The notes beneath the pieces were generated by a model. It ran no database searches and was not told where the DNA came from. It saw only the letters and a list, made by a program, of their open reading frames with translations. A DNA stretch of 64,000 nt from Kitasatospora sp. NBC_01287 (lineage in GTDB: Bacteria; Actinomycetota; Actinomycetes; Streptomycetales; Streptomycetaceae), in NCBI RefSeq assembly GCF_026340565.1, contig NZ_JAPEPB010000001.1, positions 1,736,001 through 1,800,000 of the forward strand, written 5' to 3'. A program made the translations under genes and the position numbers. Each line of letters begins with the position of its first letter. Position 1 is the first letter of the stretch. Shown in pieces: positions 6,725 to 64,000 of the stretch.

Positions 6725-6827
6725 ACCGACCGTGCGGGCCGCCCGGTGGGTGGCCCGCTCCCCCTACTCCGGGCCGCCCAGGGACGGTGCGTGACCCGGA
6801 CTCCGTCCGACCACCAGGTCGGGCGGA

Positions 6828-6866
6828 CCGCAGCCCCGGACCCACGGCGAGGGTCCGGGGCTGTGG
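6828..6866 (+). terminator. Strong intrinsic hairpin after the purine operon
   Basis: A perfect 13-bp GC-rich stem (6831-6843 with 6851-6863) closes a 7-nt loop, extendable by three pairs with one wobble. It lies 107 bp after the deaminase stop and before the next ATG at 6950. There is no U-tract, as is common in streptomycetes. Confidence 0.75.
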
Positions 6867-6949
6867 CGTACCGTGCGGCAGGGCATCGTAGGTTACTGGT
6901 ACTCAGCTCAGTGACCGCGCACCGCTCCTCGACGGCCGAAAGAGACCAT

Positions 6950-8590
6950 ATGACCACCGTGGGGTCGGCGACTCCCGCTGCCCGCCTGCCCGCCGCCCTG
7001 CGCGATCCGGTGATCGCCGCCACCCTGCTGGCCGCGGTGCTGCACCTGATCTGGGCCCTGGCGCTGGCCAACGACGCGGGTGATCTGGCGGCGCAGTACG
7101 CCTGGACCGAGTTCACCCGCCAGCACCCTGACGCGGCGTACAACCTGTCCTGGTACGGCGGGATCCACACCGCCTCGTACAGCGTGCTGTCGCCGTACCT
7201 GATGGGCCTGCTGGGAGTGCGGACCACCGGTGTGCTGGCCGGCACCGCCTCCGCCGCGCTGGCGGCCGTCCTGCTCACCCGCTCGGGTCTGCGGCGGCCG
7301 CTGGCCCCGGCGCTCTGGACGGCGTTCGCGCTCTGGTGCGACGTGGCGTCAGGCCGGGTGACCTTCGCGGTCGGAGTGGCCTTCGGCCTGGCCGCCACCG
7401 TGCTCGCCTTCACCCGCGGCGGGCCGCGGCTGCGCGGCACGGCCCTGTTCGCGCTGGCGGCGCTGGCCACCATGGGCAGCCCGGTGGTCGGCCTCTTCCT
7501 GGAGGTGGCGGCCGCCGCGCTGTTGCTGACCGGCCGCCGCCGGGACTGCTGGCCGCTGGCCGCGGCGCCGGTGGTGGTGGTGACCGGCACCTCGCTGCTC
7601 TTCCCCTTCTACGGGGTGCAGCCCTTCGACTGGTGGGCCGCCGCGCCGGTGGTGGCCGCCGCGCTGGCGGTGGCCTGGCTGGTGCCTGACGACTGGTCGG
7701 CGGTGCGGCGCGGGGCGCTGGTCTACGCGGCCGGGGTGGTGCTGGTCTGGCTGGTCCCCTCGCCGGTGGGCAGCAACGTGGAGCGGCTGAGCCTGCTCTT
7801 CGCCGGCAGTGTGCTGCTCGCGGTCCTGCTCAACGCGCGGCGGCTGACCCGCCGCCGGGCGCTGCTGGTGGCCGTCGCCTACCTCTCGGTGGCCTGCTGG
7901 CTGACCGGGCGGACGATGGGCGACCTGGTGGTGACCGTGCCGGTGGCCCGGGCCGCCGCCGACGGCAAGGCGCTGATCAACGAACTGCACCAGGTGGGCG
8001 CCGACCGCGCCCGGGTCGAGGTGGTCCCGCTCGCCTCGCACTGGGAGGCCAGCGGGGTGGCACCGTACGTGGACCTGGCGCGCGGCTGGAACCGGCAGGC
8101 GGACGTCACCCGCAACCCGCTCTTCTACGCCGACAAGCTCGCCCCGCAGGACTACCACACCTGGCTGCGGCGCTGGGGCGTGGGCTTCGTGGCGCTCTCC
8201 ACCGACAAGCCGGACGACGCGGCGGTGGAGGAGGCGGCACTGGTCTCGGCCGGGCAGCCGTGGCTGGCCCCGGTCTGGCAGCACGGCAGTTGGCGGCTCT
8301 TCCGGGTCACCGACGCCACCCCGCTGGCCGAGCCGCCGGCCGTGGTGCAGCAGGCCGGTCCCGCCTCACTGACCGTGCGGGTGCCCAACGCCGGTCCGGT
8401 GCACCTGCTGCTGCCCTGGTCGCCCTGGCTGGGCATCGCCGGGGACCAGGGCGACGCGGACGGCTGCCTGGCCGAGGCGGGCGACTGGACGGTGCTCTAC
8501 GCGCCCGCTCCCGGCACCTACCGGATCGCCGGGAAGTACTCCTTCGACCGGGGCAGCCCCTGCCGGTCCGGCCTGGCGAAGGGGCGCTGA
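6950..8590 (+). CDS. Polytopic membrane protein, GT-C-like
   Basis: 546 residues. About ten hydrophobic segments fill residues 20-330 (for example AATLLAAVLHLIWALALA and FGLAATVLAF), followed by a soluble C-terminal region of about 200 residues. This is the layout of GT-C type lipid-linked glycosyltransferases and related unknowns. I see no decisive catalytic motif, although WTEFTRQHPDAAYNLSWYGG after the first helix occupies the place of the GT-C extracytoplasmic loop. The ATG at 6950 has GAAAGAG upstream. It stands alone between two terminators and converges on gcl, so nothing ties it to purine metabolism. Confidence 0.6.
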   Translation: MTTVGSATPAARLPAALRDPVIAATLLAAVLHLIWALALANDAGDLAAQYAWTEFTRQHPDAAYNLSWYGGIHTASYSVLSPYLMGLLGVRTTGVLAGTASAALAAVLLTRSGLRRPLAPALWTAFALWCDVASGRVTFAVGVAFGLAATVLAFTRGGPRLRGTALFALAALATMGSPVVGLFLEVAAAALLLTGRRRDCWPLAAAPVVVVTGTSLLFPFYGVQPFDWWAAAPVVAAALAVAWLVPDDWSAVRRGALVYAAGVVLVWLVPSPVGSNVERLSLLFAGSVLLAVLLNARRLTRRRALLVAVAYLSVACWLTGRTMGDLVVTVPVARAAADGKALINELHQVGADRARVEVVPLASHWEASGVAPYVDLARGWNRQADVTRNPLFYADKLAPQDYHTWLRRWGVGFVALSTDKPDDAAVEEAALVSAGQPWLAPVWQHGSWRLFRVTDATPLAEPPAVVQQAGPASLTVRVPNAGPVHLLLPWSPWLGIAGDQGDADGCLAEAGDWTVLYAPAPGTYRIAGKYSFDRGSPCRSGLAKGR

Positions 8591-10798: not shown

Positions 10799-11389
10799 TC
10801 AGCCGCGTGGGCAGAGTCCGTCCACCACCAGCTCGACCATCCGCTCGACCGTCACCACGTCGCTGCCACCCCAGTCACCGGCGGCCATCACGGCGGCGTG
10901 CAGCATGCGCAGCAGCTCCAAGGTGCGCAGGTCGTCCCGGACCGTGCCGGCCGCCCTGGCGTCCGCCAGCACCGCCTCGGCGGTGTCGACGATCTGCTCG
11001 CGCAGGCCCGACAGCAGCTCGCCGTCGTGCTCGGCGGCGGCGGCCAGCAGCGTCTTCAGCTCGCCGCAGTCGCGCCAGTGGGTGGCCAGCACCGGCAGCC
11101 AGGCGAACAGCGCCTCGCCCGGCTCGCTCCGCTCCAGCAGCGAGCGCGCCTGGGCGCAGGCCTCCTCCAGGCCGGCCCGGTAGACCGCAGCGACCAGCTC
11201 CTCACGGGTCGGGAAGTGCCGGTAGAGGGTGCCCGCGCCGACCTGGGCCCGCTTGGCGATCTCGTCCATCGAGGCGCCGGCACCCCGTTCGGCGAAGGCC
11301 TCGGCCGCCGCCGCGAGCAGCCGCTCGTAGTTGCGGCGGGCATCGGCGCGCATCGGTCGCCCGGCGGGCACCGGGGGCTCAGCGGGCAT
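10799..11389 (-). CDS. TetR-family repressor of the adjacent MFS exporter
   Basis: 196 residues. The N-terminal HTH is clear: RLLAAAAEAFAERGAGASMDEIAKRAQVGAGTLYRHFPTREEL (about residues 23-65), followed by an all-helical ligand domain. GAGGAG lies just before the ATG at 11389. The gene is divergent from the MFS gene at 11478, and the 88-bp gap holds two identical 15-bp palindromes, so it almost certainly represses itself and the exporter. The inducer is unknown. Confidence 0.85.
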   Translation of the reverse strand: MPAEPPVPAGRPMRADARRNYERLLAAAAEAFAERGAGASMDEIAKRAQVGAGTLYRHFPTREELVAAVYRAGLEEACAQARSLLERSEPGEALFAWLPVLATHWRDCGELKTLLAAAAEHDGELLSGLREQIVDTAEAVLADARAAGTVRDDLRTLELLRMLHAAVMAAGDWGGSDVVTVERMVELVVDGLCPRG

Positions 11390-11408
11390 GCGGACTCCTC
11401 TTGCTAAA

Positions 11409-11457
11409 CGGAGACTCTCTCCGTATCTTATGGACCGTCAATCGGAGACTCTCTCCG
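11409..11457. promoter_or_regulatory. Twin TetR operators (two identical 15-bp palindromes)
   Basis: CGGAGACTCTCTCCG occurs at 11409-11423 and again at 11443-11457, with centres 34 bp apart. Both are perfect inverted repeats (CGGAGA / TCTCCG). They fill the gap between a TetR gene and a divergent exporter gene, the standard position for TetR operators. Confidence 0.8.
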
Positions 11458-11477
11458 ATTATGCCCGAGGAGCCCTT

Positions 11478-12923
11478 GTGACAGTTCTGTCCCCGGTATC
11501 CAACACCTCATCGACCACCGACCGCGGCTCAGGGGCCGTACTGGCCGTGCTGGTCGGCGCCTATCTGATGATCGCCGTCGACGCGACCGTGGTGAACGTC
11601 GCGTTGCCCGCCCTGCAGCGCCAACTGCGCTTCTCCGCCACCGCGCTGTCCTGGGTGCCGAACGCCTACTCGCTGACCTTCGGCGGCCTGCTGCTGCTTG
11701 GCAGCCGGCTCGGCGACCGGCTGGGCCGCCGCCGCGTCTTCACCACCGGCGTCCTCGTCTTCACCCTCGCCTCGCTGCTCGGCGGACTGGCGCCCGACAG
11801 CGGCTGGCTGCTGGCCGCGCGGGGCGCCCAGGGCGTCGGGGCCGCGCTCAGCACGCCCAACGTGCTGGCCCTGATCGCCACCAACTTCGCCGAGGGCCGG
11901 CCGCGCAACCGGGCACTGGGCCTCTACTCGGCCGCCGCCAGCGCGGGCGCCTCGGTCGGCCTGGTCCTGGGCGGACTGTTGACCAGCTGGTTCTCCTGGC
12001 GCTGGTCGCTGCTGATCAACGTCCCGGTGGGCCTGGTGGTGGCCCTGGCCGCGCCCCGGCTGCTCACCGAACCGCCGCGCCACCGGGGCTCGTTCGACGC
12101 CGGCGGGGCGGTCACCGGCACCTTGGGCAGCACCGCGCTGGTCTACGGGTTCCTGCGGGCGGCCGAGCGCGGCTGGGGCGACCCGCTCGCCGTGGGCGGC
12201 TTCGCGGCGGCCCTGGTGCTGCTGGCCGCCTTCGTGCTGCACGAGCGCCGGGCCGCGCAACCGCTGCTGCCGCTGGAACTGCTGCGCGAGCGGAGCCGGG
12301 CCGGCGCCTACCTCAACCTGCTGCTGATGCCGGCCGGGATGTTCCCCGCCTTCTTCTTCCTGACCCTGGCCTTCCAGGAGCTGCTCGGCTACAGCGCGCT
12401 CCGCACCGGCCTGGCCTTCCTGCCCCTGACGCTGTCGATGTTCGCCACCGTGCGGCTGGTGCCCAAGGTGCTGGGCCGGACCGGCACCCGGCCGCTGCTG
12501 ATCGCCGGCGCGGCCCTGCTGGTCGGCAGCAGCCTGTGGCTCTCCAGGCTGCCGGAGCACGGTGACTACCCCACCACGCTGCTCGGGCCGCTGCTGCTGA
12601 TGGGCCTGGGCGCCGGGCTGACGTTCATGCCGATGAGCGTGCTGGTGCTGACCGGGGTGAGCCCGGCGCGCTCGGGCGCGGCCGCCGGGCTGCTGCAGAC
12701 CCTGCAGTGGAGCGGCGGGACGGTGGGCACCGCGATCCTGGTCTCGGTCTACGGCACCGCCACCCGGCACGGCGGCGGCAGCCCGACCGCGCACCAGACG
12801 CACGGGCTGGACGCGGCCTTCGCGGGCGGCGGCGCGATCATGCTGCTGGGCCTGCTGGTGGCGGTCCTGGTGATCCGCACGCCGCGCCCGGAGCATCAGC
12901 CGGCGCGCCAGAAGGCGCGCTAG
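11478..12923 (+). CDS. MFS drug exporter, DHA2 (14-TMS) type
   Basis: 481-residue inner-membrane proton antiporter. Features are the motif D1-like AVDATVVNVALPALQRQLRFS in the first helix, motif A GSRLGDRLGRRRVF, and enough hydrophobic segments for 14 helices. The GTG at 11478 with GAGGAG at 11467-11472 is preferred over earlier in-frame starts, because it places both TetR operators outside the gene. It overlaps the convergent gene at 12920 by 4 bp. The substrate is unknown; drug or toxic metabolite efflux is the usual role. Confidence 0.85.
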   Translation: MTVLSPVSNTSSTTDRGSGAVLAVLVGAYLMIAVDATVVNVALPALQRQLRFSATALSWVPNAYSLTFGGLLLLGSRLGDRLGRRRVFTTGVLVFTLASLLGGLAPDSGWLLAARGAQGVGAALSTPNVLALIATNFAEGRPRNRALGLYSAAASAGASVGLVLGGLLTSWFSWRWSLLINVPVGLVVALAAPRLLTEPPRHRGSFDAGGAVTGTLGSTALVYGFLRAAERGWGDPLAVGGFAAALVLLAAFVLHERRAAQPLLPLELLRERSRAGAYLNLLLMPAGMFPAFFFLTLAFQELLGYSALRTGLAFLPLTLSMFATVRLVPKVLGRTGTRPLLIAGAALLVGSSLWLSRLPEHGDYPTTLLGPLLLMGLGAGLTFMPMSVLVLTGVSPARSGAAAGLLQTLQWSGGTVGTAILVSVYGTATRHGGGSPTAHQTHGLDAAFAGGGAIMLLGLLVAVLVIRTPRPEHQPARQKAR

Positions 12924-54043: not shown

Positions 54044-54517
54044 TCAGGCGCTGCGCAGCAGGAACGCGGAGAGCGGGACGAAGCCGCCGCTGCCGCCCCG
54101 GGCTGGGTCCTCCCCCGAGGTGCGGCGCAGCAGCGCGAGGGCGATCCGCTCGCCCTGCACCTTGGCGCGGTCGGCCACCAGGCCCTGGTGCAGACCGTCG
54201 ACCGTGGCGCTCCAGAGCTGGACCCAGCGCCCGTAGTGCGCGGCGGTCAGCGGTGCGCGCTCGTGCAGGGCCGCGTGCGGCGCGAAGGCGTTGCGGCGGT
54301 AGTCGGCGGACCTGAGCAGCGCACTCGCCCAGAAGTCCGTGATGTGCGGGAGGTGGGCCTCCAGGTCCATCCCGGCGACCTCGGTGAAGTGCGGTCCGAT
54401 CAGCGGATCGGCGAAGGCTGCGAGGTAGAACCGGCGGAGCAGCCGCTCCAGATCGGCCCGATCGGCGATGTCCGTTCTGAGCACTGGTCCGCTCCTCGCT
54501 GCTCTGTCGTCCGTCAT
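54044..54517 (-). CDS. Group III-type truncated haemoglobin
   Basis: 157 residues. FYLAAFADPLIGPHFTEVAGMDLEAHLPHITDFWASALLRSADYRRNAFAPHAALHE covers helices B-F; the proximal His is in the APHAALH region. The 2-over-2 globin fold is about 120 residues with short tails. It binds oxygen or NO, and group III members are thought to act in NO or redox handling. ATG at 54517 gives MTDDRAARSG; the frame is open 14 codons further. No ribosome site is strong. It is convergent with the AAA gene and divergent from the HTH gene at 54712. Confidence 0.8.
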   Translation of the reverse strand: MTDDRAARSGPVLRTDIADRADLERLLRRFYLAAFADPLIGPHFTEVAGMDLEAHLPHITDFWASALLRSADYRRNAFAPHAALHERAPLTAAHYGRWVQLWSATVDGLHQGLVADRAKVQGERIALALLRRTSGEDPARGGSGGFVPLSAFLLRSA

Positions 54518-54711: not shown

Positions 54712-54942
54712 ATGAGCGAGAACAACCAGCTCGCCGCCGCCGCGAGCAGCCGCGACCCCGCCATCGGCCTGCGGGCCGTCCGAGCCCTGCGCGACCTCGC
54801 CGACCGGCTGGAGGACCTCCAGGTCGGCAACGCCAGGGCCAACGGGTGGTCCTGGCAGGAGATCGCCGCCTGCCTCGGCGTCAGCCGCCAGGCGGTGCAC
54901 AAGAAGCATTCCCGACGCCCCCACTTCCTGGACGGAGAGTAG
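54712..54942 (+). CDS. Small HTH regulator (autoregulatory, leaderless)
   Basis: 76 residues. The sequence LRAVRALRDLADRLEDLQVGNARANGWSWQEIAACLGVSRQAVHKKHSRR is a complete HTH with a recognition helix SRQAVHKKH. Such proteins commonly precede a ClpN-domain gene in streptomycetes, as here. Translation probably starts directly on the transcript's first base. GGAGAG within its last codons serves as ribosome site for the next gene. Confidence 0.82.
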   Translation: MSENNQLAAAASSRDPAIGLRAVRALRDLADRLEDLQVGNARANGWSWQEIAACLGVSRQAVHKKHSRRPHFLDGE

Positions 54943-54944
54943 CC

Positions 54945-55529
54945 ACGTTCGAACGCTTCGCAGCGGCCGCGCGGCTGGCGATCACCGAGGCGCAGCGCGA
55001 GGCCGTCGAGCTGCGCCACGACCGCCTCGCCCCCGAGCACCTGCTGCTCGGCCTGCTGCACCACCCGCAGGACCCGTCCGTCGCGGTCCTGGTCGAGCAG
55101 GGGCTGGACCTGCCCACCGCGCGGGCCGCCGTGGTCCGGCTGCTCGGCGGCGGCTCGGCCGGCGTCGACGGCGAGGCGCTGGGCCACATCGGCATCGATC
55201 TGACCGCGGTGCGTGAGGCGATCGAGGCCGGCTTCGGCCCGGGCGCGCTCGACGGTCCGGCCGAGCGCCGCCCGCGCGGCCAGGAAACCGCCAACCGCGT
55301 GCGACTCGACCACCGCACCAAGAAGGTGCTGGAACTCGGCCTGCGGGCGGCGGCGGCCCGCAGGGCGCGCACCATCGAACCGGGCCACCTGCTGGTCGGA
55401 CTGCTCCAGGAGGCGCAGCTGCCGCCGACCCGCGAGGCGCGCGAGGGCCTGGTGACCCAGATGCTGACCGACCACGGCCTGCTGCCCGTCGCCGTCTACG
55501 CCAAGGTGCTCGCCACTCTGGACGCTTGA
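54945..55529 (+). CDS. Clp N-terminal repeat protein, apparent ACG start
   Basis: 194 residues: two Clp-N repeats (ERFAAAARLAITEAQREAVELRHDRLAPEHLLLGLLHHPQ and the second from HRTKKVLELGLRAAAARRARTIEPGHLLVGLL) with no ATPase domain. It may be a stand-alone substrate adaptor. Family members start MFERF; here the codon at that place is ACG (54945-54947), ideally spaced after GGAGAG. The only canonical in-frame start, at 54846, would overlap most of the HTH gene. ACG initiation or a mutated ATG is therefore likely. Confidence 0.75.
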   Translation, partial: TFERFAAAARLAITEAQREAVELRHDRLAPEHLLLGLLHHPQDPSVAVLVEQGLDLPTARAAVVRLLGGGSAGVDGEALGHIGIDLTAVREAIEAGFGPGALDGPAERRPRGQETANRVRLDHRTKKVLELGLRAAAARRARTIEPGHLLVGLLQEAQLPPTREAREGLVTQMLTDHGLLPVAVYAKVLATLDA

Positions 55530-55538
55530 CCCCTCCCG

Positions 55539-56588
55539 CTACGGCCGTACCTGGCCGGCGCGCGCCGGAGCCGGGATCTCGCGGCGGATCACCGGCGCCA
55601 CCTCCGAGGCGAAGAGCGCCAACTGCTCGTGCTGCACCTCCTCGGTCAGCGCGTCCACACCGATCCCGACCACCTCGTTGCCGAAGGCCTCGTGGTAGCG
55701 GTGGATCTTCTCGATCACCTGCTGCGGGCTGCCGACCAGCGCCGAGCCGCGCTCCAGGGCGTCCTCCAGCGAGGCGAACGGCGAGTTGTTGTGCTTGCCC
55801 GCGGCCGAGTTGAACAGCGCGTCCCAGTAGGGGCGGAAGCCGGCCACCGCGTCCTGCGAGCGCTTGGCCAGGAAGAGTCCGCCGAACCCGGTGCCCACCA
55901 CCGCCTGCTCGGGATCGCGGCCGTAGTGCGCCCAGCGCTCGCGGTAGTGGTCCACCAGGGCCCGGTACTTCTCCAGCGGGTGGAAGCTGTTGGCGGAGAA
56001 GAGCGGGTCGCCGTAACGGGCGGCCAGATCGGTGGACCGCGTGCTGGTGGCACTGCCGTGCCAGACCGGGATCGGCTGCTGGTGCGGGCGCGGGTAGGTG
56101 GTCACGTTCTCCAGCGGCGGACGGGTACCGCCCTGCCAGCTCACCCCCTCCTCGCGCCAGAGCCGGTGCAGCAGACCGTAGTTCTCCGCGAGGTGCTCCC
56201 ACTGCCGCTCCTCGCTCAGCCCGAAGAGCCCGAAATGGCGCGGGTCGTTCCCCTTGCCGATGATCAACTCAAGTCGACCGCCCGAGAGTTGGTCGACCAT
56301 CGCGTAGTCCTCGGCGACCCGGACCGGGTCCAGCACGCTCAGCACCGTCACCGTGGTGAAGAGCCGGATGGCGCTGGTCCGGGTCGCGATGGCGGCCAGC
56401 AGCACCGGCGGCGCCGGAGACAGGAAGGGTTCACCGTGTCGTTCCCCTACTCCGTAGCCCTCGTAGCCCAACTCCTCAGCGGTGACGGCCTGGTCGATGA
56501 CGTTTCGGTACTTCTCGGACGCGCTGTACTGGCGCTGGGTGACCGGGTCGGGCCCGTTGGAGAGCAGGGACGAGACGATGAACCGCAT
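55539..56588 (-). CDS. LLM-class flavin-dependent monooxygenase
   Basis: 349-residue TIM-barrel protein of the bacterial luciferase-like family. Features are EELGYEGYGVGERHGEPFLSPAPPVLLAAIATRTSAIRLFTTVTVLSVLDPVRVAEDYAMVDQLSGGRLELIIGKGNDPRHF and PIPVWHGSATS. It uses FMNH2 or F420. It ends 9 bp from the Clp-N gene, convergent. It is divergent from the aldo/keto reductase at 56999 across a 410-bp gap. The substrate is unknown; its proximity to the organosulfur operon makes an organosulfur role possible. Confidence 0.83.
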   Translation of the reverse strand: MRFIVSSLLSNGPDPVTQRQYSASEKYRNVIDQAVTAEELGYEGYGVGERHGEPFLSPAPPVLLAAIATRTSAIRLFTTVTVLSVLDPVRVAEDYAMVDQLSGGRLELIIGKGNDPRHFGLFGLSEERQWEHLAENYGLLHRLWREEGVSWQGGTRPPLENVTTYPRPHQQPIPVWHGSATSTRSTDLAARYGDPLFSANSFHPLEKYRALVDHYRERWAHYGRDPEQAVVGTGFGGLFLAKRSQDAVAGFRPYWDALFNSAAGKHNNSPFASLEDALERGSALVGSPQQVIEKIHRYHEAFGNEVVGIGVDALTEEVQHEQLALFASEVAPVIRREIPAPARAGQVRP

Positions 56589-56998
56589 GGCGGTGACTCC
56601 TCGCTGGGATCGCCGGAAGAGGCGGGGGCGGTGGCGGTGGCGGTAGCGGGACACCCGCACTGCGCGGCGCGCCCGACCGGGCTGGACGAACGGGGGGAAG
56701 CGGGAGGATCCGAGGGACGCGAGCGGCCCCGGGAGAGCGAAGGACCCGATGGGCGGGAGGATCCGAAGGAGACGCGACCAGCGCTGCTCAGGGCAGCAGG
56801 GGGCGACAGCGGCGACAACACGCACGCGCCCGGCTCCCGCGTACGGGAGCAGCCGGAAGGAGGTCGACCGCCGAACGCACCGGACCCACCCCTCCCGCCA
56901 AGTCGGACAAACTTCAACTGATCCTAAGCCGCCCCAGCCGGCCGGGCAAGGGCCGTGGCGCCACCCGAGCACCCGCCGCGACCTGGCAGGATGCGGGT
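56589..56998. other. Intergenic region between the monooxygenase and aldo/keto reductase
   Basis: 410 bp. It contains a repeated GGGAGGATCCGA element (56700-56715 and 56755-56770) and GC-rich sequence. I looked for a SAM riboswitch and for a Cys-rich leader peptide, given the sulfur context, and found neither convincingly. Confidence 0.4.
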
Positions 56999-57988
56999 AT
57001 GAGCTACCTCGCGGCCGACTCCCGCTACGCCTCGATGACCTACCGCCGCGCCGGACGCAGCGGCGTGCAGCTGCCCGCCGTCTCGCTCGGGCTGTGGCAC
57101 AACTTCGGCGACACCCAGCCCCTGGAGGTGCAGCGCGCGGTGCTGCGCCGCGCCTTCGACCGGGGCGTCACGCACTTCGACCTGGCCAACAACTACGGCC
57201 CGCCGTACGGCTCGGCGGAGAAGAACTTCGGCACCCTCTTCGCCCAGGACTTCCGCCCCTACCGCGACGAGCTGTTCATCGCATCCAAGGCCGGCTACGA
57301 CATGTGGCCGGGCCCCTACGGCGACGGCGGCAGCCGCAAGTACCTGCTGGCCAGCCTGGACCAGTCGCTGGGCCGGATGGGCCTGGACCACGTGGACGTC
57401 TTCTACTCGCACCGCTACGACCCCGAGACGCCCCTGGAGGAGACCATGGGCGCGCTCGCCTCGGCCGTCCAGCAGGGCAAGGCGCTCTACGCGGCGATCT
57501 CCAACTACCCCGCGGACCAGCACCGGGAGGCGGTGGCGATCCTGCGCGAGCTGGGCACGCCGGTGCTGCTCAACCAGGCCCGCTACTCGATCCTGGACCG
57601 GGGCGTGGAGGAGGGGGTGCTGGAGGCGGTGGGCGAGACCAGGACCAGCCTCATCGCCTACTCCCCCCTTGCCCAGGGCCTGCTGACCGACCGTTACCTC
57701 GGTGGCGAGGTGCCGGCCGGCTCCCGGATGTCGGTCGGGCACTTCCTCAAGGAGGAGGCGCTGACCGGGGAGAAGCTGGAGCGGCTGCGGGCCCTGGACA
57801 AGCTGGCGGGACGGCGCGGGCAGAGCCTGGCCCAGCTGGCGCTCGCCTGGGTGCTGCGTGACCCCCGGGTGGTCTCGGTGATCATCGGCGCCAGCAGCGT
57901 GGCCCAACTCGACCAGAACCTCGACGCCTTGGCGGCCGGGCCGCTGAGCGCCGAGGAACTGGCCGAGATCGACGAGCTGAGCCGCTGA
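56999..57988 (+). CDS. Aldo/keto reductase, YghZ/Gpr type
   Basis: 329-residue NADPH-dependent TIM barrel. LPAVSLGLWHNFGDTQPLEVQRAVLRRAFDRGVTHFDLANNYGPPYGSAEKNFG includes Asp and Tyr of the tetrad; Lys in ASKAGYDMWPGPYG and His in FYSHRYDPETP complete it. C-terminal IGASSVAQLDQN binds the cofactor. The GPPYGSAE pattern is that of L-glyceraldehyde 3-phosphate reductase (YghZ). GGCAGGA lies before the ATG. Short CTGCCGACTACC repeats follow its stop codon (58018-58060). Confidence 0.88.
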   Translation: MSYLAADSRYASMTYRRAGRSGVQLPAVSLGLWHNFGDTQPLEVQRAVLRRAFDRGVTHFDLANNYGPPYGSAEKNFGTLFAQDFRPYRDELFIASKAGYDMWPGPYGDGGSRKYLLASLDQSLGRMGLDHVDVFYSHRYDPETPLEETMGALASAVQQGKALYAAISNYPADQHREAVAILRELGTPVLLNQARYSILDRGVEEGVLEAVGETRTSLIAYSPLAQGLLTDRYLGGEVPAGSRMSVGHFLKEEALTGEKLERLRALDKLAGRRGQSLAQLALAWVLRDPRVVSVIIGASSVAQLDQNLDALAAGPLSAEELAEIDELSR

Positions 57989-58110
57989 CCCAGGGCTCCG
58001 CCTGAGCCGCTGCCCCCGGCTGCCGACTACCAGCTGCCGACTACCGGCTGCCGACTGAGCCCTGCCCCGGTTGCCGGCCGAGTCGCTGCCCTGGGCTGCC
58101 GTGGGAGGGC

Positions 58111-59175
58111 TCAGCGAAGGGCCGGCAGCACCGTCTCCGCCACCCGGTAGGCCTCCTCCAGGAGCGGGTTGGCGGAGAGGATGAAGGTGTCCACCCCCAG
58201 GTCCTCGAACTCCTTGAGGCGTTCGACGACCTGCGCGGTGCTGCCGACCACCGCCGTGCCGGGCCCGGGACGGAACAGGCTCATGCCCGGCCACAGGTTC
58301 GGGTGGGTCTCCAACTCCCGGGCCCGGGCCGGCACCTGGCCGCCGTGCTGGCGGAACTGTCGCTGCCAGCCGACGCCGTCCTCACCCGAGCGCCCGTCGA
58401 GCTGCCGCGCGTAGGTGGCCTGGCTGGTGACGTCGAGCAGCCGGTCGGCGGCCGCCCAGGCCTGCTCCTCGGTGTCCCGCACGATCAGGTGCAGGCGCAG
58501 GCCGATCCGCAGGGTGCGGCCGTGCGCGGCCGCCCGCTCGCGGACCCGGGCCAGCTTCTCCTTGAGCAGGTGCGGCGGTTCGCCCCAGGTGAGGTAGACG
58601 TCGACGTGCTCGGCGGCCATCTCGATCCCGGCGGCCGAGGAGCCGCCGAACCAGAGCGGGATGTGGCCCGCCCGCTTCGGGGTCAGCTCCCGCAGGCTCG
58701 CGCCGGCGTTCTTGAGCCGGTAGAACTCGCCCTCGTGATCGAACACCTCACCGGCCGTCAGGCGCTTGACCAGGCTCCAGTACTCGGCGCTCAGCCGGTA
58801 GCGGTCGTCGTGCTCCACATCCAGGCCGTACTCGCGCAGTTGGCCGGTGGAGCCGTTGACCACGTTGAAGCGCAACCGGGGGCCGTGCAGGTGCTCGAAG
58901 CTGAGCGCCATCTTGGCCAGCAGGGTCGGCGAGACCAGACCGGGGTGCACGGCCAGCAGTGGCTGGAAGCCGGGGCCGGTGGCGGCGGCGACCGCGCTGC
59001 CCAGCGTCCATACGTCGTAGAGGTCGGTGGCGAGGAGCGCGCCGCTGTAGCCCAGGCGCTCGATGGTGGCGGCCAGTTGCTGGAGGTAGCCCAGGTCGAC
59101 CGGCCGGCGGCCGGCCGGCTCCCAGGGGTAGTGGCCCTCGCGCGGGATCAGGTACCAGAGGACTTCGGTGGCCAT
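58111..59175 (-). CDS. ssuD: FMNH2-dependent alkanesulfonate monooxygenase (SsuD-like)
   Basis: 354-residue luciferase-fold enzyme that oxygenates organosulfonates to aldehyde plus sulfite. VLWYLIPREGHYPWEPAGRRPVDLGYLQQLAATIERLGYSGALLATDL, HPGLVSPTLLAKMALSFEHLHGPRLRFNVVNGS and EFYRLKNAGASLRELTPKRAGHIPLWFGGSSAAGIEMAAEHVDVYLTWGEPP match SsuD, including the flexible loop region. The last gene of the organosulfur operon, four bases after the substrate-binding gene. The reductase partner SsuE is not in the window. Confidence 0.88.
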   Translation of the reverse strand: MATEVLWYLIPREGHYPWEPAGRRPVDLGYLQQLAATIERLGYSGALLATDLYDVWTLGSAVAAATGPGFQPLLAVHPGLVSPTLLAKMALSFEHLHGPRLRFNVVNGSTGQLREYGLDVEHDDRYRLSAEYWSLVKRLTAGEVFDHEGEFYRLKNAGASLRELTPKRAGHIPLWFGGSSAAGIEMAAEHVDVYLTWGEPPHLLKEKLARVRERAAAHGRTLRIGLRLHLIVRDTEEQAWAAADRLLDVTSQATYARQLDGRSGEDGVGWQRQFRQHGGQVPARARELETHPNLWPGMSLFRPGPGTAVVGSTAQVVERLKEFEDLGVDTFILSANPLLEEAYRVAETVLPALR

Positions 59176-59179
59176 CGGT

Positions 59180-60076
59180 TCAGTTCCCTTCCAGGGCGGC
59201 GGCGACCGGTGCCGCGAGCTCGGGCAGCTGGGCGTCGGCCACCCGCACCGGCTTCTCGATGAAGCCGACCTCGGCGAAGATGTCGGCGGCCTCCTGCTGC
59301 TCCGCGATGAACGCGTCGGTCACCGGCTCCAGTTGCCACGGCAGCCGGGCCAGCGCCTCGCGGTGGTCGGCGAGCGTGCCGCCCTGGTCGGCCGCCGCGA
59401 GCGCCGCGGCCTCGTCCAGGTGCTCGGCCACCCAGCGGTCGGCCCGCCGCAGCGCGGTCGCGACGGCGGCCACCACCTCGGGCCGCTCGACGGCGAAGGT
59501 CCGGCGGGCGAAGAAGACGGAGCGGTCACTGATCACCTCGCCGGTGCCGATCAGCACCCGGACCTCCCCGCCGCGCAGCGCCTCGACGAGCTCGGCGCCC
59601 TGGGCGATCCAGCCGCCGATCGCCCCCTCGCGCAGCCGCTCGGCCTCGGTTCCCTCGGGGCGCAGCGGCGTCACCGAGTCGCGGTAGGACAGGCCCGCCC
59701 CGTGCAGGGCCTTGGCGAGCAGATGGGTCTGCCAGGAGCCGATCCCGAGCACCACGGCGGTGCCCTGGAGGTCGGCGACCGTGCGAACCGGGCCGTCGGC
59801 GCGCACCAGCAGGGCGCCGTGGTCGGGGCGCGGCGCCGAGACGGCCGCGTAGACCAGGTCGTGGCCGGCCGCCTGGGCGGTGATCGGCGGGGTCGAGCCG
59901 GTGCCGCCCAGGTCGATGGTGCCGTCGGCGAGCAGCGCTCCGGTGCGGGTGCCGTCGGTGTAGTGGTGGAACCGCCCCTCCTCTCCGGCCTTGGCCAACT
60001 CCTCGTCCAGGTAGTCGAGTCGAGAGAGGTAGGAGAGCGAGGGGTTGCTCCGGTGGACGCCCAGGGTGATGGTCAT
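59180..60076 (-). CDS. SsuA-like substrate-binding protein without signal peptide
   Basis: 298 residues of periplasmic-binding-protein type II fold (VHRSNPSLSYLSRLDYLDEELAKAGEEGRFHHYTDGTRTGALLADGTIDLGGTGSTPPITAQAAGHDLVYAAVSAPRPDHGALLV). It starts MTITLGVHRS directly in the first beta strand, with neither signal peptide nor lipobox. The start is well fixed, since the ATG abuts the ATPase gene stop. It may be a cytoplasmic binding or scavenging protein, or an enzyme-like relative; a second, lipidated SsuA-like protein is encoded at 61797. Confidence 0.75.
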   Translation of the reverse strand: MTITLGVHRSNPSLSYLSRLDYLDEELAKAGEEGRFHHYTDGTRTGALLADGTIDLGGTGSTPPITAQAAGHDLVYAAVSAPRPDHGALLVRADGPVRTVADLQGTAVVLGIGSWQTHLLAKALHGAGLSYRDSVTPLRPEGTEAERLREGAIGGWIAQGAELVEALRGGEVRVLIGTGEVISDRSVFFARRTFAVERPEVVAAVATALRRADRWVAEHLDEAAALAAADQGGTLADHREALARLPWQLEPVTDAFIAEQQEAADIFAEVGFIEKPVRVADAQLPELAAPVAAALEGN

Positions 60077-60955
60077 TCAGTGTGCTCCGGTGGGGAGTGC
60101 GGGGTGGGGAGAGGTGGGGTCGGGACGGGGATCGGGCTCGGGTGCGGCCGGGCGTACACCGAGGTCGGCGAGCAACTGGCGTCGCAGTCGGGCGAATTCG
60201 GGGTCTGCCGGGTCGCGGGGGTGGGCCACCTTGACCCGCTCGTCGCGGACCAGCCGCCCTTCGCGCAGCACCGCCACCCGGTCGGCGAGCCGGACCGCCT
60301 CGTCCACGTCGTGGGTGACCAGCAGCACGGCGGGCCGGTGCTTGCGGCACAGCTCGCCCACCAGGTCCTGCATGCGCAGCCGGGTGAGCGCGTCCAGCGC
60401 GGCGAACGGCTCGTCGAGCAGCAGCAGTTCGGGCCGCCGGACCAGCGCCCGGGCCAGCGCCGCGCGCTGCGCCTCACCGCCCGACAGGGTGGCCGGCCAG
60501 GCCTCGGCGTGGTCCGCCAGGCCGACCTCGGCCAGGGCCTGACGACCGATCAGCTCACGCTCGGCGCCGCGTGGCAGCCCGAGGGTGACGTTGGCCAGCA
60601 CGCGCTTGGCGGGCACCAGGCGCGGCTCCTGGAAGACCACGGTACGTGCCTCGGGCACCAGCACGGTGCCCGAATCCGGCCGGTCGAGCGCGCCGAGGAT
60701 CCGCAGCAGGGTGGTCTTGCCGGTGCCGCTGGCCCCCAGCAGCGCGAGGAACTCCCCACGCGCCAGGTCCAGATCGATCCCGTCCAGCACCGCCCGGCCA
60801 CCGAAGGAGCGGCGCAGGCCGCGCAGCTGAACGGCCGGCACCGCAGGCACGTCAGGCGTGTCAGCCGCGACAAGCACGTCAGGCGCAACAAGCACGTCAG
60901 GCACCTCAGGCTCAGCAGACACAGCAGACACAGCAGGCTCAGCACGGGTCCTCAT
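60077..60955 (-). CDS. ssuB: ABC transporter ATP-binding protein (sulfonate type)
   Basis: 292 residues. Walker A GASGTGKT (74-81), Q-loop VVFQEPRLVP, signature LSGGEAQRAALARAL, Walker B LLLLDEPFAALD and H-loop THDVDEA. The first 40 residues are a Val/Pro/Asp repeat (VPDVLVAPDVLVAADTPDV). The aliphatic sulfonate/nitrate/taurine subfamily is indicated by the Q-loop and by the operon. It overlaps the permease gene by 4 bp and directly abuts the next gene. Confidence 0.9.
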   Translation of the reverse strand: MRTRAEPAVSAVSAEPEVPDVLVAPDVLVAADTPDVPAVPAVQLRGLRRSFGGRAVLDGIDLDLARGEFLALLGASGTGKTTLLRILGALDRPDSGTVLVPEARTVVFQEPRLVPAKRVLANVTLGLPRGAERELIGRQALAEVGLADHAEAWPATLSGGEAQRAALARALVRRPELLLLDEPFAALDALTRLRMQDLVGELCRKHRPAVLLVTHDVDEAVRLADRVAVLREGRLVRDERVKVAHPRDPADPEFARLRRQLLADLGVRPAAPEPDPRPDPTSPHPALPTGAH

Positions 60956-61800
60956 CGGGCCGCCCCCGTCCCCGCCGTGCGCCAGGGCATCAGCACCCGT
61001 TCCAGCAGCCGCACCAGCAGGTCCGCCAGCAGGCCCAGCAGGCCGTAGATCAGGATGCAGACGGCCAGGATGTCGGTGCGCGCGTAGTTCTGCGCCTGGG
61101 TCATCAGATAGCCGATCCCGGCCGTGGAGTTGATCTCCTCGGCGGCGATCAGCGCGATCACGCTGAGCGTCATCGACAGCCGCAGCCCGGCCAGCAGCGC
61201 GGGCAGCGCGGTGGGCAGCACCACCTCGCGGATCAGGGCGAAGCGCCCCAGGCCGAAGGTGCGGGCCGCCTCGACCAGCTTGCGGTCCACGCCCCGCACG
61301 CCCTGCGCGGTGTTGACGTACATCGGGAACGTGGTGGCGACCGCGATGAGCACCACCTTGGCGGTCTCGTTGATCCCGAACCAGACCATGAAGAGCGGGA
61401 CCAGCGCCAGGAAGGGCACCGTGCGCAGCACCTGCATCGGTGAGTCCAGCAACTCCTCGCCCAGCCGGAAGAGTCCGGTGACCACGCCGAGCAGCAGCCC
61501 GGCCGCCACCCCGAGGAGCAGACCGAGCCCGGAGCGGGTGAGCGAGACGGTGAGCGCGTCACCGAGTTGCCCGTTGCCCCACAGCTCCCCGACCGCCCGC
61601 ACCACGCCGACCGGCGAGGCGAGCACGTCCGGGGTGAGCACGCCGGTGGCGGAGGCGGCACTCCAGGCGCCCAGCAGGGCCAGCGGGCCCAGCGCGCGCA
61701 GCGAGAGCGACAGCGCCCTGGCCCGGGGCCGGGCGAGGTGCACCCGGGGGGTGACCAGCCCTGCTGCCCGGGCAGCAGGGGCGTCCAGGGCCGCGGTCAT
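60952..61800 (-). CDS. ssuC: ABC transporter permease (sulfonate type)
   Basis: 282 residues, six helices with the BPD_transp_1 EAA loop EAARTFGLGRFALIREVVLPTALPALLAGLR. The AAEEINSTAGIGYLMTQAQNYARTDILAVCILIYGLLG end is characteristic of SsuC/TauC permeases. It overlaps both neighbours by 4 bp, giving tight translational coupling in the operon. Confidence 0.91.
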   Translation of the reverse strand: MTAALDAPAARAAGLVTPRVHLARPRARALSLSLRALGPLALLGAWSAASATGVLTPDVLASPVGVVRAVGELWGNGQLGDALTVSLTRSGLGLLLGVAAGLLLGVVTGLFRLGEELLDSPMQVLRTVPFLALVPLFMVWFGINETAKVVLIAVATTFPMYVNTAQGVRGVDRKLVEAARTFGLGRFALIREVVLPTALPALLAGLRLSMTLSVIALIAAEEINSTAGIGYLMTQAQNYARTDILAVCILIYGLLGLLADLLVRLLERVLMPWRTAGTGAAR

Positions 61801-62807
61801 CGGCTACCGCCGGGCAGCTTGGTGATGTCCAGCAGATCGGGGCGGACGTCCACCTGGCTCTTGGTGATCTTCTGGGCGGCGTAGAAGGCGGCCACCTTGT
61901 CGAACCGCGCGGCCACCGTGTCGTCGATCGGCGAGAGCACGCCGTTCTGGCGGCCGAAATCGACGCTGATCTGCTTGCTCCTACCGTTCACCGCCAGCGG
62001 TCCGGCATCGGTGAAGACGTTCAGGAAGGCGGCCGGGTCCGCCTTGGCTCGCACGTCGCCGTCGTGCAGGTACTGGTAGAGCGCCTTGGTGATGTCGGGG
62101 TGCTGGTCGGCGAAGACGGTGCGCACCGCCCAGACGCTGTAGTTGTCCGACCCCAGCGCGGGGCCGGTGGCCAGGAAGTGCGCGCCGGAGTCGGCCAGCG
62201 CGGCCACCGCGTAGCTGCTCCAGGTCGCCCAGGCGTCCACCTGGCCGGAGCTGAAGACCGGGGCGGACTGGTCGGGGCGCAGGTAGACCCGCTGCACCTG
62301 GTCGGCGGCGATGCCGTTCTTGGCCAGCGCCTGGAGCAGCAGGTACTCGCCGGTGCCGCCCTGGTTGACCGCGACCTTCTTGCCGACCAGGTCCTGGATC
62401 GAGGTGATCGGCGAGCCGTCCTTGACCAGGATGCCCTCGCCGACCGGGTCGGGGTCGGTGGCTGCGAAGAGCTTGAAGCTGGGCTTGGTGGCCAGCGCCG
62501 TCACCGCGGAGGTGATCGAGCCGAGGGCGAAGTCGAGTTGGCCGGCGTTGAGCTCCTGGGCGGCGGGCGCGAACGGGCCGGCGCTACCGGTCCAGGCGAC
62601 CTTGGCGTGCACCGCGGCCAGCGCCCGGTCCAGCGAGCCGTCCTTCTTGCCGAGGGCGAGCACCCCGGAGTTGCCGGGATCGGGGATCCGCACGGTCACC
62701 TCGGCGGTGGCGCCGCCCGGGGCGGTGGCCTTGGAGGAGCCGCAAGCGGCGAGGGAGAGGGTGAGCAGCGCGGCGGCTGCGGCGAGCAGGGGGCGGGAGA
62801 GGTTCAC
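61797..62807 (-). CDS. ssuA: Lipoprotein substrate-binding protein for aliphatic sulfonates
   Basis: 336 residues. Lipoprotein signal MNLSRPLLAAAAALLTLSLAAC with Cys22 as the lipidated residue. Type II binding fold: IPDPGNSGVLALGKKDGSLDRAL, VTALATKPSFKLFAATDPDPVGEGILVKDGSPITSIQDLVGKKVAVNQGGTGEYLLLQALAKNG. The YLRPDQSAPVFSSGQVDAWATWSSY segment is typical of SsuA/NMT1-like sulfonate-binding proteins. It is the external receptor of the ssuBC transporter. Overlaps ssuC by 4 bp. Confidence 0.88.
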   Translation of the reverse strand: MNLSRPLLAAAAALLTLSLAACGSSKATAPGGATAEVTVRIPDPGNSGVLALGKKDGSLDRALAAVHAKVAWTGSAGPFAPAAQELNAGQLDFALGSITSAVTALATKPSFKLFAATDPDPVGEGILVKDGSPITSIQDLVGKKVAVNQGGTGEYLLLQALAKNGIAADQVQRVYLRPDQSAPVFSSGQVDAWATWSSYAVAALADSGAHFLATGPALGSDNYSVWAVRTVFADQHPDITKALYQYLHDGDVRAKADPAAFLNVFTDAGPLAVNGRSKQISVDFGRQNGVLSPIDDTVAARFDKVAAFYAAQKITKSQVDVRPDLLDITKLPGGSR

Positions 62808-62965
62808 GTGGGGCTCCGGGTCAGGGTTCGGCGCGGGGCGGGCGCGGGCGGTCAGCGACGGGCGCCGGTGGTCAGCGACGGGCGCGGGCGGTCAGCGGCG
62901 GGCGGCCGTCGGCGGCGGCCCGGCGGTCAACGGCGGCCGGTGGTCGGGGTCAGCAGCACCGGGGG
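62808..62965 (-). repeat. Degenerate GGTCAGCGaCGGGCG repeats before ssuA
   Basis: 158 bp between the desulfinase-like and SsuA genes. From about 62849 to 62975 a unit like GGTCAGCGACGGGCG occurs several times with variation. No stable terminator stands out, so transcription probably continues into ssuA. Confidence 0.5.
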
Positions 62966-63973
62966 TCAGCGGCGACCGGCGCGCAACGCCTCGGCGGCAC
63001 GCAGCGGTTCGGGGTCGGCCCAGGCGGCCAGGTCCACCGGCTCGGGCAGGAAGCCGTGGCGGTGCAACAGCCGCTCCTGCTGGGCGAGCAGGTCGAGGCG
63101 TTCGCGGGCGAGCGAGAGGTGCAGGGTGCGGTGGCCGTCGGCGGCGTAGGCGCCGTGCACGCCCTCGGCACCGGCGCCGGTCTCGGCGCTGAGGATCCGG
63201 GCCACCTCCACCGGGTGTCCGGCCGCCCAGTCGGCGGCATCGAGCAGCACCGCGAGGAACCGCACCACCAGGTCGGGGCGGCTGTCCAACAGGTCCTGAT
63301 GGACCGTCACCGGACGAGGGGTCCCGTTGTTGACCCGGGCGCGCCGGTCCGGCGCCTCGTCCAGTTCCACGGCGACCTCGGCGCCGAAGCGCCGCGCGGC
63401 CTCCACGGCCAGTGCGCCCTTCACGTAGACGGCGTCCACCCGGCCCTCGCGCAGCGCGGTCAGCTCGGCGGTCCACTGGCCCTCGCCGGGCCGGGCCGGG
63501 ACCTCGGTCAGCTCCGCGTCCGCGAGCGAGAGTCCGGCCAGGCCGAGCGCGCCGGTGAAGCCGGCCAGCGCCATCGCCCGCCAGAAGTCGATGCCGATCG
63601 GGTGCCGCGGGATCGCCAGTCGCAGTCCGCGCAGCGAGGCCGGACCGCGCAGGCCGCTGCCCGCCCGGACCAGCACCACCTGGCGCTCCTCGATCCAGGT
63701 CAGGCCGATCAACCGGGTGCGCTCCCCGCGCGACCGGGCCCAGAGCGCAGGCACGTTGCCGCCCTCGCGGAAGAGGCCGGGCAGCGCGTGGGTGTAGTGG
63801 TGGTCGGCGGCGAGCTCGGCCGGGGCGTCCTGCAGGGAGCGCACGGAGATCCCGTCGGCCGCGAACTCGGCGGCCAGGCGGCCCTGGTCGGCGGCGATGC
63901 CGGTGGCGGTGGGGACGGGGCAGCGGGTGAACCAGAGCGTGTCGGGGGCCTGGACGGGCGCGGAGCTGGGCAT
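62966..63973 (-). CDS. DszB-like sulfinate desulfinase
   Basis: 335 residues, type II binding-protein fold without signal peptide. It is closest in layout to DszB, which releases sulfite from 2'-hydroxybiphenyl-2-sulfinate. The catalytic set is kept: Cys18 in TRCPVPTA (Cys27 of DszB), His58 in DHHYTHALPG (His60), Arg68 and Gly71 in FREGGNVPAL (Arg70, Gly73). The His-Arg and Arg-Gly spacings are identical to DszB. The ATG at 63973 has GAGAAGG upstream. It heads the operon that includes ssuACB and ssuD, consistent with desulfurization. The substrate is unknown, and a non-catalytic SsuA-like role remains possible. Confidence 0.72.
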   Translation of the reverse strand: MPSSAPVQAPDTLWFTRCPVPTATGIAADQGRLAAEFAADGISVRSLQDAPAELAADHHYTHALPGLFREGGNVPALWARSRGERTRLIGLTWIEERQVVLVRAGSGLRGPASLRGLRLAIPRHPIGIDFWRAMALAGFTGALGLAGLSLADAELTEVPARPGEGQWTAELTALREGRVDAVYVKGALAVEAARRFGAEVAVELDEAPDRRARVNNGTPRPVTVHQDLLDSRPDLVVRFLAVLLDAADWAAGHPVEVARILSAETGAGAEGVHGAYAADGHRTLHLSLARERLDLLAQQERLLHRHGFLPEPVDLAAWADPEPLRAAEALRAGRR

Positions 63974-64000
63974 GGCGGCAGGACCTTCTCAGGAAGTGGC

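Follow-up and report, generated by a model that had tools for sequence, protein, structure and literature searches.

Introduction

The nearest relative of known structure of the protein described here is the desulfinase DszB, whose slow turnover is reported to limit fuel biodesulfurization (PMC12168087). In crystals of DszB, the sulfinate is reported to be hydrogen-bonded by H60 and R70. The C27S mutant is described as inactive, H60Q as losing about 17-fold of the activity, and R70 mutants, altered within an RXGG motif said to be conserved across homologues, as insoluble with undetectable activity (PMC6100217). According to the same report, DFT favors the cysteine of DszB as a proton donor, and a nucleophilic route has also been proposed (PMC6100217).

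Two gene regions of related make-up have been published from oil-desulfurizing bacteria. In Gordonia terrae C-6, all eight genes from GTC6_01585 to GTC6_01620 are reported to be induced by benzothiophene, and E. coli extracts with bdsABC are reported to convert benzothiophene to o-hydroxystyrene, a product attributed there to the three genes jointly and not to the desulfinase singly (PMC3868597). In Rhodococcus qingshengii IGTS8, peg4799, 4801, 4802 ('SsuA/DszB'), 4804 and 4806 are described as raised in dibenzothiophene culture, besides the dsz proteins of pIGTS8; peg4800 and 4803 do not appear in the paper's text (PMC8557817). As far as the published gene lists go, the operon described below shares with the Gordonia bds region a substrate-binding protein (SBP), a permease, an ATPase, a desulfinase, an SsuD-like LLM and a second SBP, and with peg4799-4806 of IGTS8 the SsuA, SsuB, DszB-like, SsuD and second SsuA components. 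The streptomycete operon differs from both regions in gene order, with the desulfinase gene first; compared with the Gordonia region, it also has one LLM gene against two and no aldolase or 'hypothetical' gene. Gene order and annotation, rather than sequence, suggest that the Gordonia and IGTS8 proteins belong to the same family as the streptomycete protein. The first-pass annotation of this DNA had proposed a route not described for streptomycetes; no paper on the operon in streptomycetes was found in the open-access literature, in line with that proposal, whereas the related gene orders from Gordonia and Rhodococcus were already published.

Organization of the operon

The window is a 64,000-nucleotide stretch of the 9.49 Mb genome of Kitasatospora sp. 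NBC_01287, and contains the following features near its right end:

63984-63990, minus strand, ribosome-binding site GAGAAGG upstream of the start codon at 63973, as read from the sequence
62966-63973, minus strand, predicted DszB-like desulfinase of 335 aa, first gene of the operon (Cys18, His59, Arg69, Gly71-Gly72)
61797-62807, minus strand, SsuA/TauA-like substrate-binding lipoprotein, lipobox LAAC
60952-61800, minus strand, SsuC-like ABC permease, 4-base overlap with the stop of the SBP gene
60077-60955, minus strand, SsuB-like ABC ATPase, 4-base overlap with the stop of the permease gene
59180-60076, minus strand, second, signal-less SsuA-like protein, free of Cys and of any Met other than that of the start
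58111-59175, minus strand, SsuD-like FMNH2-dependent monooxygenase (LLM), keeping R226/H228/R297, with Asn at Tyr331
56999-57988, plus strand, aldo/keto reductase, on the opposite strand and not a core part, present in 17 of 24 streptomycete loci

The DszB-like open reading frame starts with an ATG at 63973, ends with a stop at 62966 and is real, to which the present analysis adds the minus strand; just five in-frame codons separate the upstream stop from the ATG. As proposed at first pass, it heads a sulfonate-type operon: the genes for the lipoprotein SBP, the permease, the ATPase, the signal-less SsuA-like protein and the SsuD-like LLM follow on the same strand in this order, and these five downstream genes overlap or almost abut. 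The signal-less SsuA-like protein had gone unmentioned at first pass. The first and second genes are separated by a gap of 158 bases. GC-rich imperfect tandem repeats lie in this region (62830-62979), with the 20-base unit CGGGCGCGGGCGGTCAGCGA present in 3.3 copies, plus others. Directly to the right of the window lies a divergent open reading frame for an IclR-type regulator (11159-12172 of locus L002), whose start is about 185 bases from the DszB-like ATG provided that the first start codon is used. The search of Rfam with 501 bases around the start of the DszB-like gene gave no match.

The earlier remark that no dszA or dszC is in view was borne out by a scan of eight proteins encoded from 55539 to 63973 and by the list of open reading frames rightward, and the two DszC matches of the genome are 25% identical. 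The operon has no gene of the DszC or DszA type as an obvious source of a sulfinate. The SsuD-like protein shares 44% of its residues with E. coli SsuD, among them R226, H228 and R297. It differs from SsuD/MsuD in having Asn in place of Tyr331, in lacking Cys54, and in scoring 322.3 bits, below the TIGR03565 equivalog cut-off of 518.2. Asn occupies the Tyr331 position in 23 of 24 streptomycete rows, the remaining row being a fragment of a broken frame. The substrate of this monooxygenase may be a sulfonate other than the simple alkanesulfonates. Elsewhere in the genome, a second SsuD-like gene (G000:C1:2157528-2158511; L122) is 44% identical to that of the operon, and two further ones are 32-33% identical.

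Predicted catalytic residues and fold

Cys18 lies in a CPVP motif, His59 is the second residue of an HH pair, and Arg69 and Gly71-Gly72 complete an H-x9-R-x-G-G motif. Cys18, His59, Arg69 and Gly72 align with C27, H60, R70 and G73 of DszB, so that the window protein matches canonical DszB at all catalytic positions. The first-pass annotation had Cys18 and CPVP right, as well as the His-Arg spacing of 10 and the Arg-Gly spacing of 3, which equal those of H60/R70/G73 in DszB; its His58, Arg68 and Gly71 were each one position off. Among 80 dereplicated rows, Cys18 is kept in 74 of 75 family members, His59 in 73 of 75, and Arg69, Gly71 and Gly72 in 75 of 75, while all five canonical DszB rows keep each of these residues. 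A search of PDB sequences up to E = 10 returned DszB as the sole match (two distinct sequences, E 1.7e-17 and 5.3e-16). The Pfam NMT1 model matched slightly over its cut-off (23.5 versus 20.5 bits). None of the three SBP-fold proteins of the operon reached the cut-off of 163.5 bits for NCBIfam SsuA_fam (TIGR01728), at 56.3 bits for the DszB-like protein, 139.8 for the lipoprotein SBP and 123.9 for the signal-less SBP.

Both motifs are found in 33 of 33 DszB-like proteins and in none of the lipoprotein SBPs (0/33) or signal-less SBPs (0/32) of the same loci, indicating that the match does not arise by chance. Of the lipoprotein SBPs, 32 of 33 carry a lipobox, against 0 of 33 DszB-like proteins and 0 of 32 signal-less SBPs; the DszB-like protein has no signal peptide, unlike the adjoining lipoprotein SBP. 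No core cysteine other than Cys18 occurs in 29 of 30 sequences of the streptomycete type or in any of the 23 sequences from a second actinobacterial family, and the same holds for its counterpart in 12 of 15 rows from proteobacteria and in 3 of the 5 canonical DszB rows, the count omitting L107, L111 and the five rows of L115-L118. These data bear on the notion that the protein is a non-catalytic, cytoplasmic ligand-binding protein that senses sulfonates or hands them over. Its SBP fold, the NMT1 and SsuA_fam matches and the presence of a second signal-less SBP in the same operon would fit such a role, but almost all actinobacterial relatives of this cysteine-poor protein place their single core cysteine where DszB has its own, and the motif is absent from both kinds of neighboring SBP, which makes this role highly unlikely.

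Two copies depart from the catalytic set. In Burkholderia (L059, about 6251-7300, minus strand), Ser and Ile replace Cys and His, and in Sphingobium (L058, 6504-7553, plus strand), Asp replaces His; both share their locus with intact paralogues and are possible natural pseudoenzymes.

An AlphaFold model built from 15 streptomycete sequences (pLDDT 84.6, pTM 0.84) found its best structural match, and thus the nearest structure to the window protein, in DszB (2de3_A; Z 31.1 over 302 residues, 2.5 A, 30% identity), followed by DszB 2de2 (Z 29.8), whereas SsuA structures reached Z scores of 24.8 at best and 24.1. Foldseek also ranked DszB first (E 1.4e-20 versus 1.1e-13 for SsuA). Since a common fold by itself shows no function, the function is argued from the gap between DszB and SsuA together with the residues. 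Identification as a plain SsuA was rejected on the missing signal peptide, the motif controls and the fold ranking: the protein shares the fold of the SsuA sulfonate-binding proteins and differs from them in its extra catalytic set and its low SsuA_fam score. Cys18 is conserved and DszB ranks above SsuA, so a desulfinase with the complete DszB catalytic set, as first proposed, remains the best reading of the sequence.

Phylogenetic analysis of DszB and its sister family

For the phylogenetic analysis, L001-L003 were omitted as copies of the window gene, and weak hits and proteins of less than 290 aa were dropped. The 122 rows left were dereplicated to 80, comprising 75 of the family and five of canonical DszB. 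From a separate set of 74 rows, two fragments of L061 were removed, leaving 72. The five canonical rows, all of which come from loci with dszA- and dszC-like genes, form a clade of their own (98/99) that excludes the window protein. The latter falls among the 75 non-canonical rows, in a streptomycete clade (32 rows; 100/99), and the fork joining the non-canonical rows has a support of 90/57, or 97/83 without the long-branched L107, in a tree that has a very distant outgroup and drew the program's long-branch warning.

Several residues of the window protein are near-invariant in the family (72-75 of 75 rows) and absent from the five canonical DszB rows: Trp14 (74/75), Glu96 (74/75), Lys185 (73/75)-Gly186, Arg213 (73/75), Asn215, Gly217, Pro219 (75/75) and Arg220 (73/75), with Gly217 and Arg220 being alignment-dependent, as they line up with the DszB row in a 16-row alignment. 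Trp14, Glu96, Lys185, Gly186, Arg213 and Pro219 show no conflict between the two alignments. The window protein thus carries W14, E96, K185-G186, R213 and P219 in addition to the catalytic set. The two groups also differ in two segments that correspond to the lids of DszB holding the biphenyl (loops 2 and 3): the segment from R118 to G138 has 19 residues in the streptomycete form versus 37 in DszB, and the segment 147-174 has 25-26 versus 45. In rhizobial members the second lid segment has 41 residues. W155 and F203 of DszB, which are reported to make hydrophobic contacts, fall within the two shortened lid segments.

On these sequence comparisons, the window protein is a member of a sister family of DszB, for which Bds-type is used as a provisional name, and not a canonical DszB. 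It shares with canonical DszB the fold, the CPVP cysteine, the His, the Arg and the RxGG motif, and differs in its clade, its own conserved residues, its shorter lids and its operon. A true DszB acting on 2'-hydroxybiphenyl-2-sulfinate would have the same catalytic residues and fold; with the protein placed outside the DszB clade, the lids shortened in the streptomycete form and no dszA or dszC adjoining, such an assignment is scarcely credible, and canonical DszB was rejected on the tree, the segment lengths and the operon. In this respect the first-pass reading was unsupported or too narrow, and substrates resembling those of DszB should not be taken for granted. Because the lid segments are shorter and the family has conserved residues of its own, a biphenyl is probably not the substrate, which may bear a second polar group and, compared with 2'-hydroxybiphenyl-2-sulfinate, is probably of smaller size or greater polarity.

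The chemistry itself could differ from that of DszB, because family-wide residues such as Lys185 have no DszB counterpart. The protein might then be a cysteine enzyme that uses the same scaffold for another reaction (e.g. sultine opening, thiolsulfonate formation or direct desulfonation), involving Cys18 and, for example, Lys185. The family-specific W14, E96, K185, R213, P219 and R220 (0/5 in canonical DszB in one alignment), the differing lengths of the lid segments and the class II aldolase gene of sister operons (see below), a hint of a more elaborate pathway, are compatible with this. It nevertheless appears unlikely, since all catalytic residues of DszB are retained and a desulfinated product is reported for the closest published operon.

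Distribution and gene neighborhoods

Within the family of the window's genome, a DszB-like gene was found in 57 of 249 genomes, the window's own included, with named relatives in Kitasatospora, Streptomyces, Embleya and Streptacidiphilus; the sister family also occurs in rhizobia, Burkholderia and Sphingobium. A single-query search with the window protein in 396 genomes across the phylum gave 2 matches (the window's own and one of the same family), a count that underestimates the spread, because a profile search in one other family of the same class, run at E 1e-20, had matches in 61 of 401 genomes, a figure that includes canonical dsz. This other family is probably Mycobacteriaceae in the GTDB sense, since several members carry dszABC. 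Of 72,556 plasmid records, 86 had a match, mostly from Sinorhizobium and Rhizobium, and among the 40 plasmid matches listed, 15 of the 16 named ones were annotated as 'ABC transporter substrate-binding protein'.

A neighbor was counted when its best BLAST hit, at whatever place in the locus, exceeded 65 bits. By this measure, the SBP, permease and ATPase genes accompany the DszB-like gene in all 24 streptomycete loci, and the signal-less SBP, SsuD-like and IclR genes in 23 of 24, the exception being a 3.8 kb contig; in L050 and L051 the SsuD-like gene is broken into frames. The same operon parts are present in eight of eight loci of the other family, with the IclR gene in seven. Eight of the 20 fetched stretches were used for this count; the remaining ones represent canonical dsz (L104, L106, L108-L110), divergent members (L107, L111, L112) and the window's family (L115-L118). 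The signal-less SsuA-like protein (59180-60076 in the window) is thus kept in operons of two actinobacterial families. In six of eight rhizobial, Paracoccus and Variovorax loci (L062 and L064-L068; not L060 and L061), a gene of the DszC class (acyl-CoA-dehydrogenase-like) or of the DszA class (LLM) directly adjoins a DszB-like gene.

Locus L105 has the order SBP, permease, ATPase, DszB-like, LLM, SsuD-like LLM, class II aldolase and signal-less SBP, and by published gene numbers and names GTC6_01620 to GTC6_01585 of Gordonia terrae C-6 have the same eight-gene order; the L105 order is also consistent with peg4799-4806 of IGTS8. Published bds PCR primers, used to link the Gordonia gene with the family, gave no convincing match in 50 loci (L069-L118); among the 14 loci listed, the best agreements were 18 of 24 bases in one locus and 17 of 21 in another. 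Class II aldolase-like genes lie inside the sister operons of L105 (4894-5610, minus strand), from another actinobacterial family, and of Sphingobium (L058, 10116-10859, plus strand), hinting at a natural substrate more complex than benzothiophene.

Proposed function

We consider it probable that the DszB-like protein, as a member of the DszB sister family, desulfinates a sulfinate in the cytoplasm without a cofactor, acting after import and either oxidation or direct delivery of its substrate, with a Cys18-dependent release of sulfite. The lipoprotein SBP, permease and ATPase would bring in an organosulfur acid, and the SsuD-like monooxygenase would either make the sulfinate or desulfonate a parallel set of substrates. 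The desulfinase, built on the fold of sulfonate-binding proteins (SsuA/NMT1), would hold the sulfinate in its cleft by Arg69 and His59, and Cys18 would break the C-S bond as a proton donor (electrophilic substitution) or as a nucleophile, giving sulfite and R-H. Under sulfur scarcity, the operon would be turned on by the IclR-type regulator and, in most relatives, by a cysteine-rich leader peptide. The analysis itself shows the homology, the fold, the conservation, the composition of the operon and its low sulfur content; catalysis, the direction of flow, regulation and substrate are inferred. Against this reading weigh the family-wide residues that DszB lacks, the absence from the operon of an obvious sulfinate-producing DszC- or DszA-type gene, the missing cysteine leader in the window's genome and the modest support for the fork that joins the 75 non-canonical rows.

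More tentatively, DszB may be just a minor offshoot of a far larger natural family of sulfinate desulfinases, hidden among proteins annotated as ABC substrate-binding proteins in streptomycetes and other actinobacteria as well as in rhizobia, Burkholderia and Sphingobium. Cofactor-free C-S cleavage of sulfinates would then be an ordinary part of sulfur scavenging in soil, a polar substrate could be bound through Lys185 and Arg213, and the signal-less SsuA-like partner could be a second SBP-fold enzyme or a carrier. If this holds, sulfinate desulfination belongs to everyday bacterial sulfur assimilation, and streptomycetes are predicted to use sulfinates or related organosulfur compounds for growth. 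New candidate enzymes would come from a large sister family that keeps the DszB catalytic set, has shortened lids and is encoded in a conserved natural operon, and the recurrent annotation 'ABC transporter substrate-binding protein' is flagged as correctable.

Sulfur content and possible upstream regulation

Proteins made under sulfur shortage are expected to spare sulfur amino acids. Compared with a background of 252 crudely called genes from 20 spread stretches and the window, the Cys+Met content is low in the DszB-like protein (0.60%; 8% of background genes lower), the lipoprotein SBP (0.30%; 2%), the ATPase (0.69%; 9%), the signal-less SBP (0.00%; 0%) and the SsuD-like protein (0.85%; 12%), and ordinary in the permease (67% of the background lower). 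The same sulfur-sparing point has been made for putative desulfinases of Gordonia NB4-1Y (PMC7661421, PMC11022551).

An alignment of the upstream DNA of 25 loci was too divergent to read, and rule-based searches were then made for leaders and an operator. Part of the sequences had already been seen when the rule for leaders and the palindrome were set up, and the control windows came from the same loci, so that the counts are descriptive: (i) short open reading frames ending in Cys codons or with HIDLAR...C were present in 34 of 39 unique streptomycete upstream regions versus 128 of 1950 control windows; (ii) an IclR-operator-like palindrome with 12 fixed positions was present with at least 10 matches in 36 of 39 unique upstream regions versus 207 of 1560 control windows. 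The leaders found upstream of the DszB-like gene among L006-L056 are cysteine-rich, with ends such as VNTVRQCPCCCC or VTTHRCPAPCVCCR. By the rule, a cysteine leader is absent from the window's genome, L004, L005 and L016, and none passed upstream of the SBP gene in seven loci of the other family or in L099; L057 does have one, missed by the 40-codon limit. Four of five leaders scanned passed the cut-off of the NCBIfam 'putative leader peptide' model NF042934, and the poly-Cys leader matched nothing. Cysteine leaders before mycobacterial cys operons have been published (PMC1262725). Together, the low Cys and Met content and the cysteine leaders of most relatives, although not of the window's genome, point to sulfur starvation. 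To the right of the window, a CCCA-N5-TGG palindrome of this kind (11139-11155 of L002), situated between the operon and the IclR open reading frame, is a candidate IclR operator.

Further to the left in the window, the open reading frame at 54047-54517 has no Pfam match, and 54846-55529 (plus strand) encodes a small protein with a Clp N-terminal domain.
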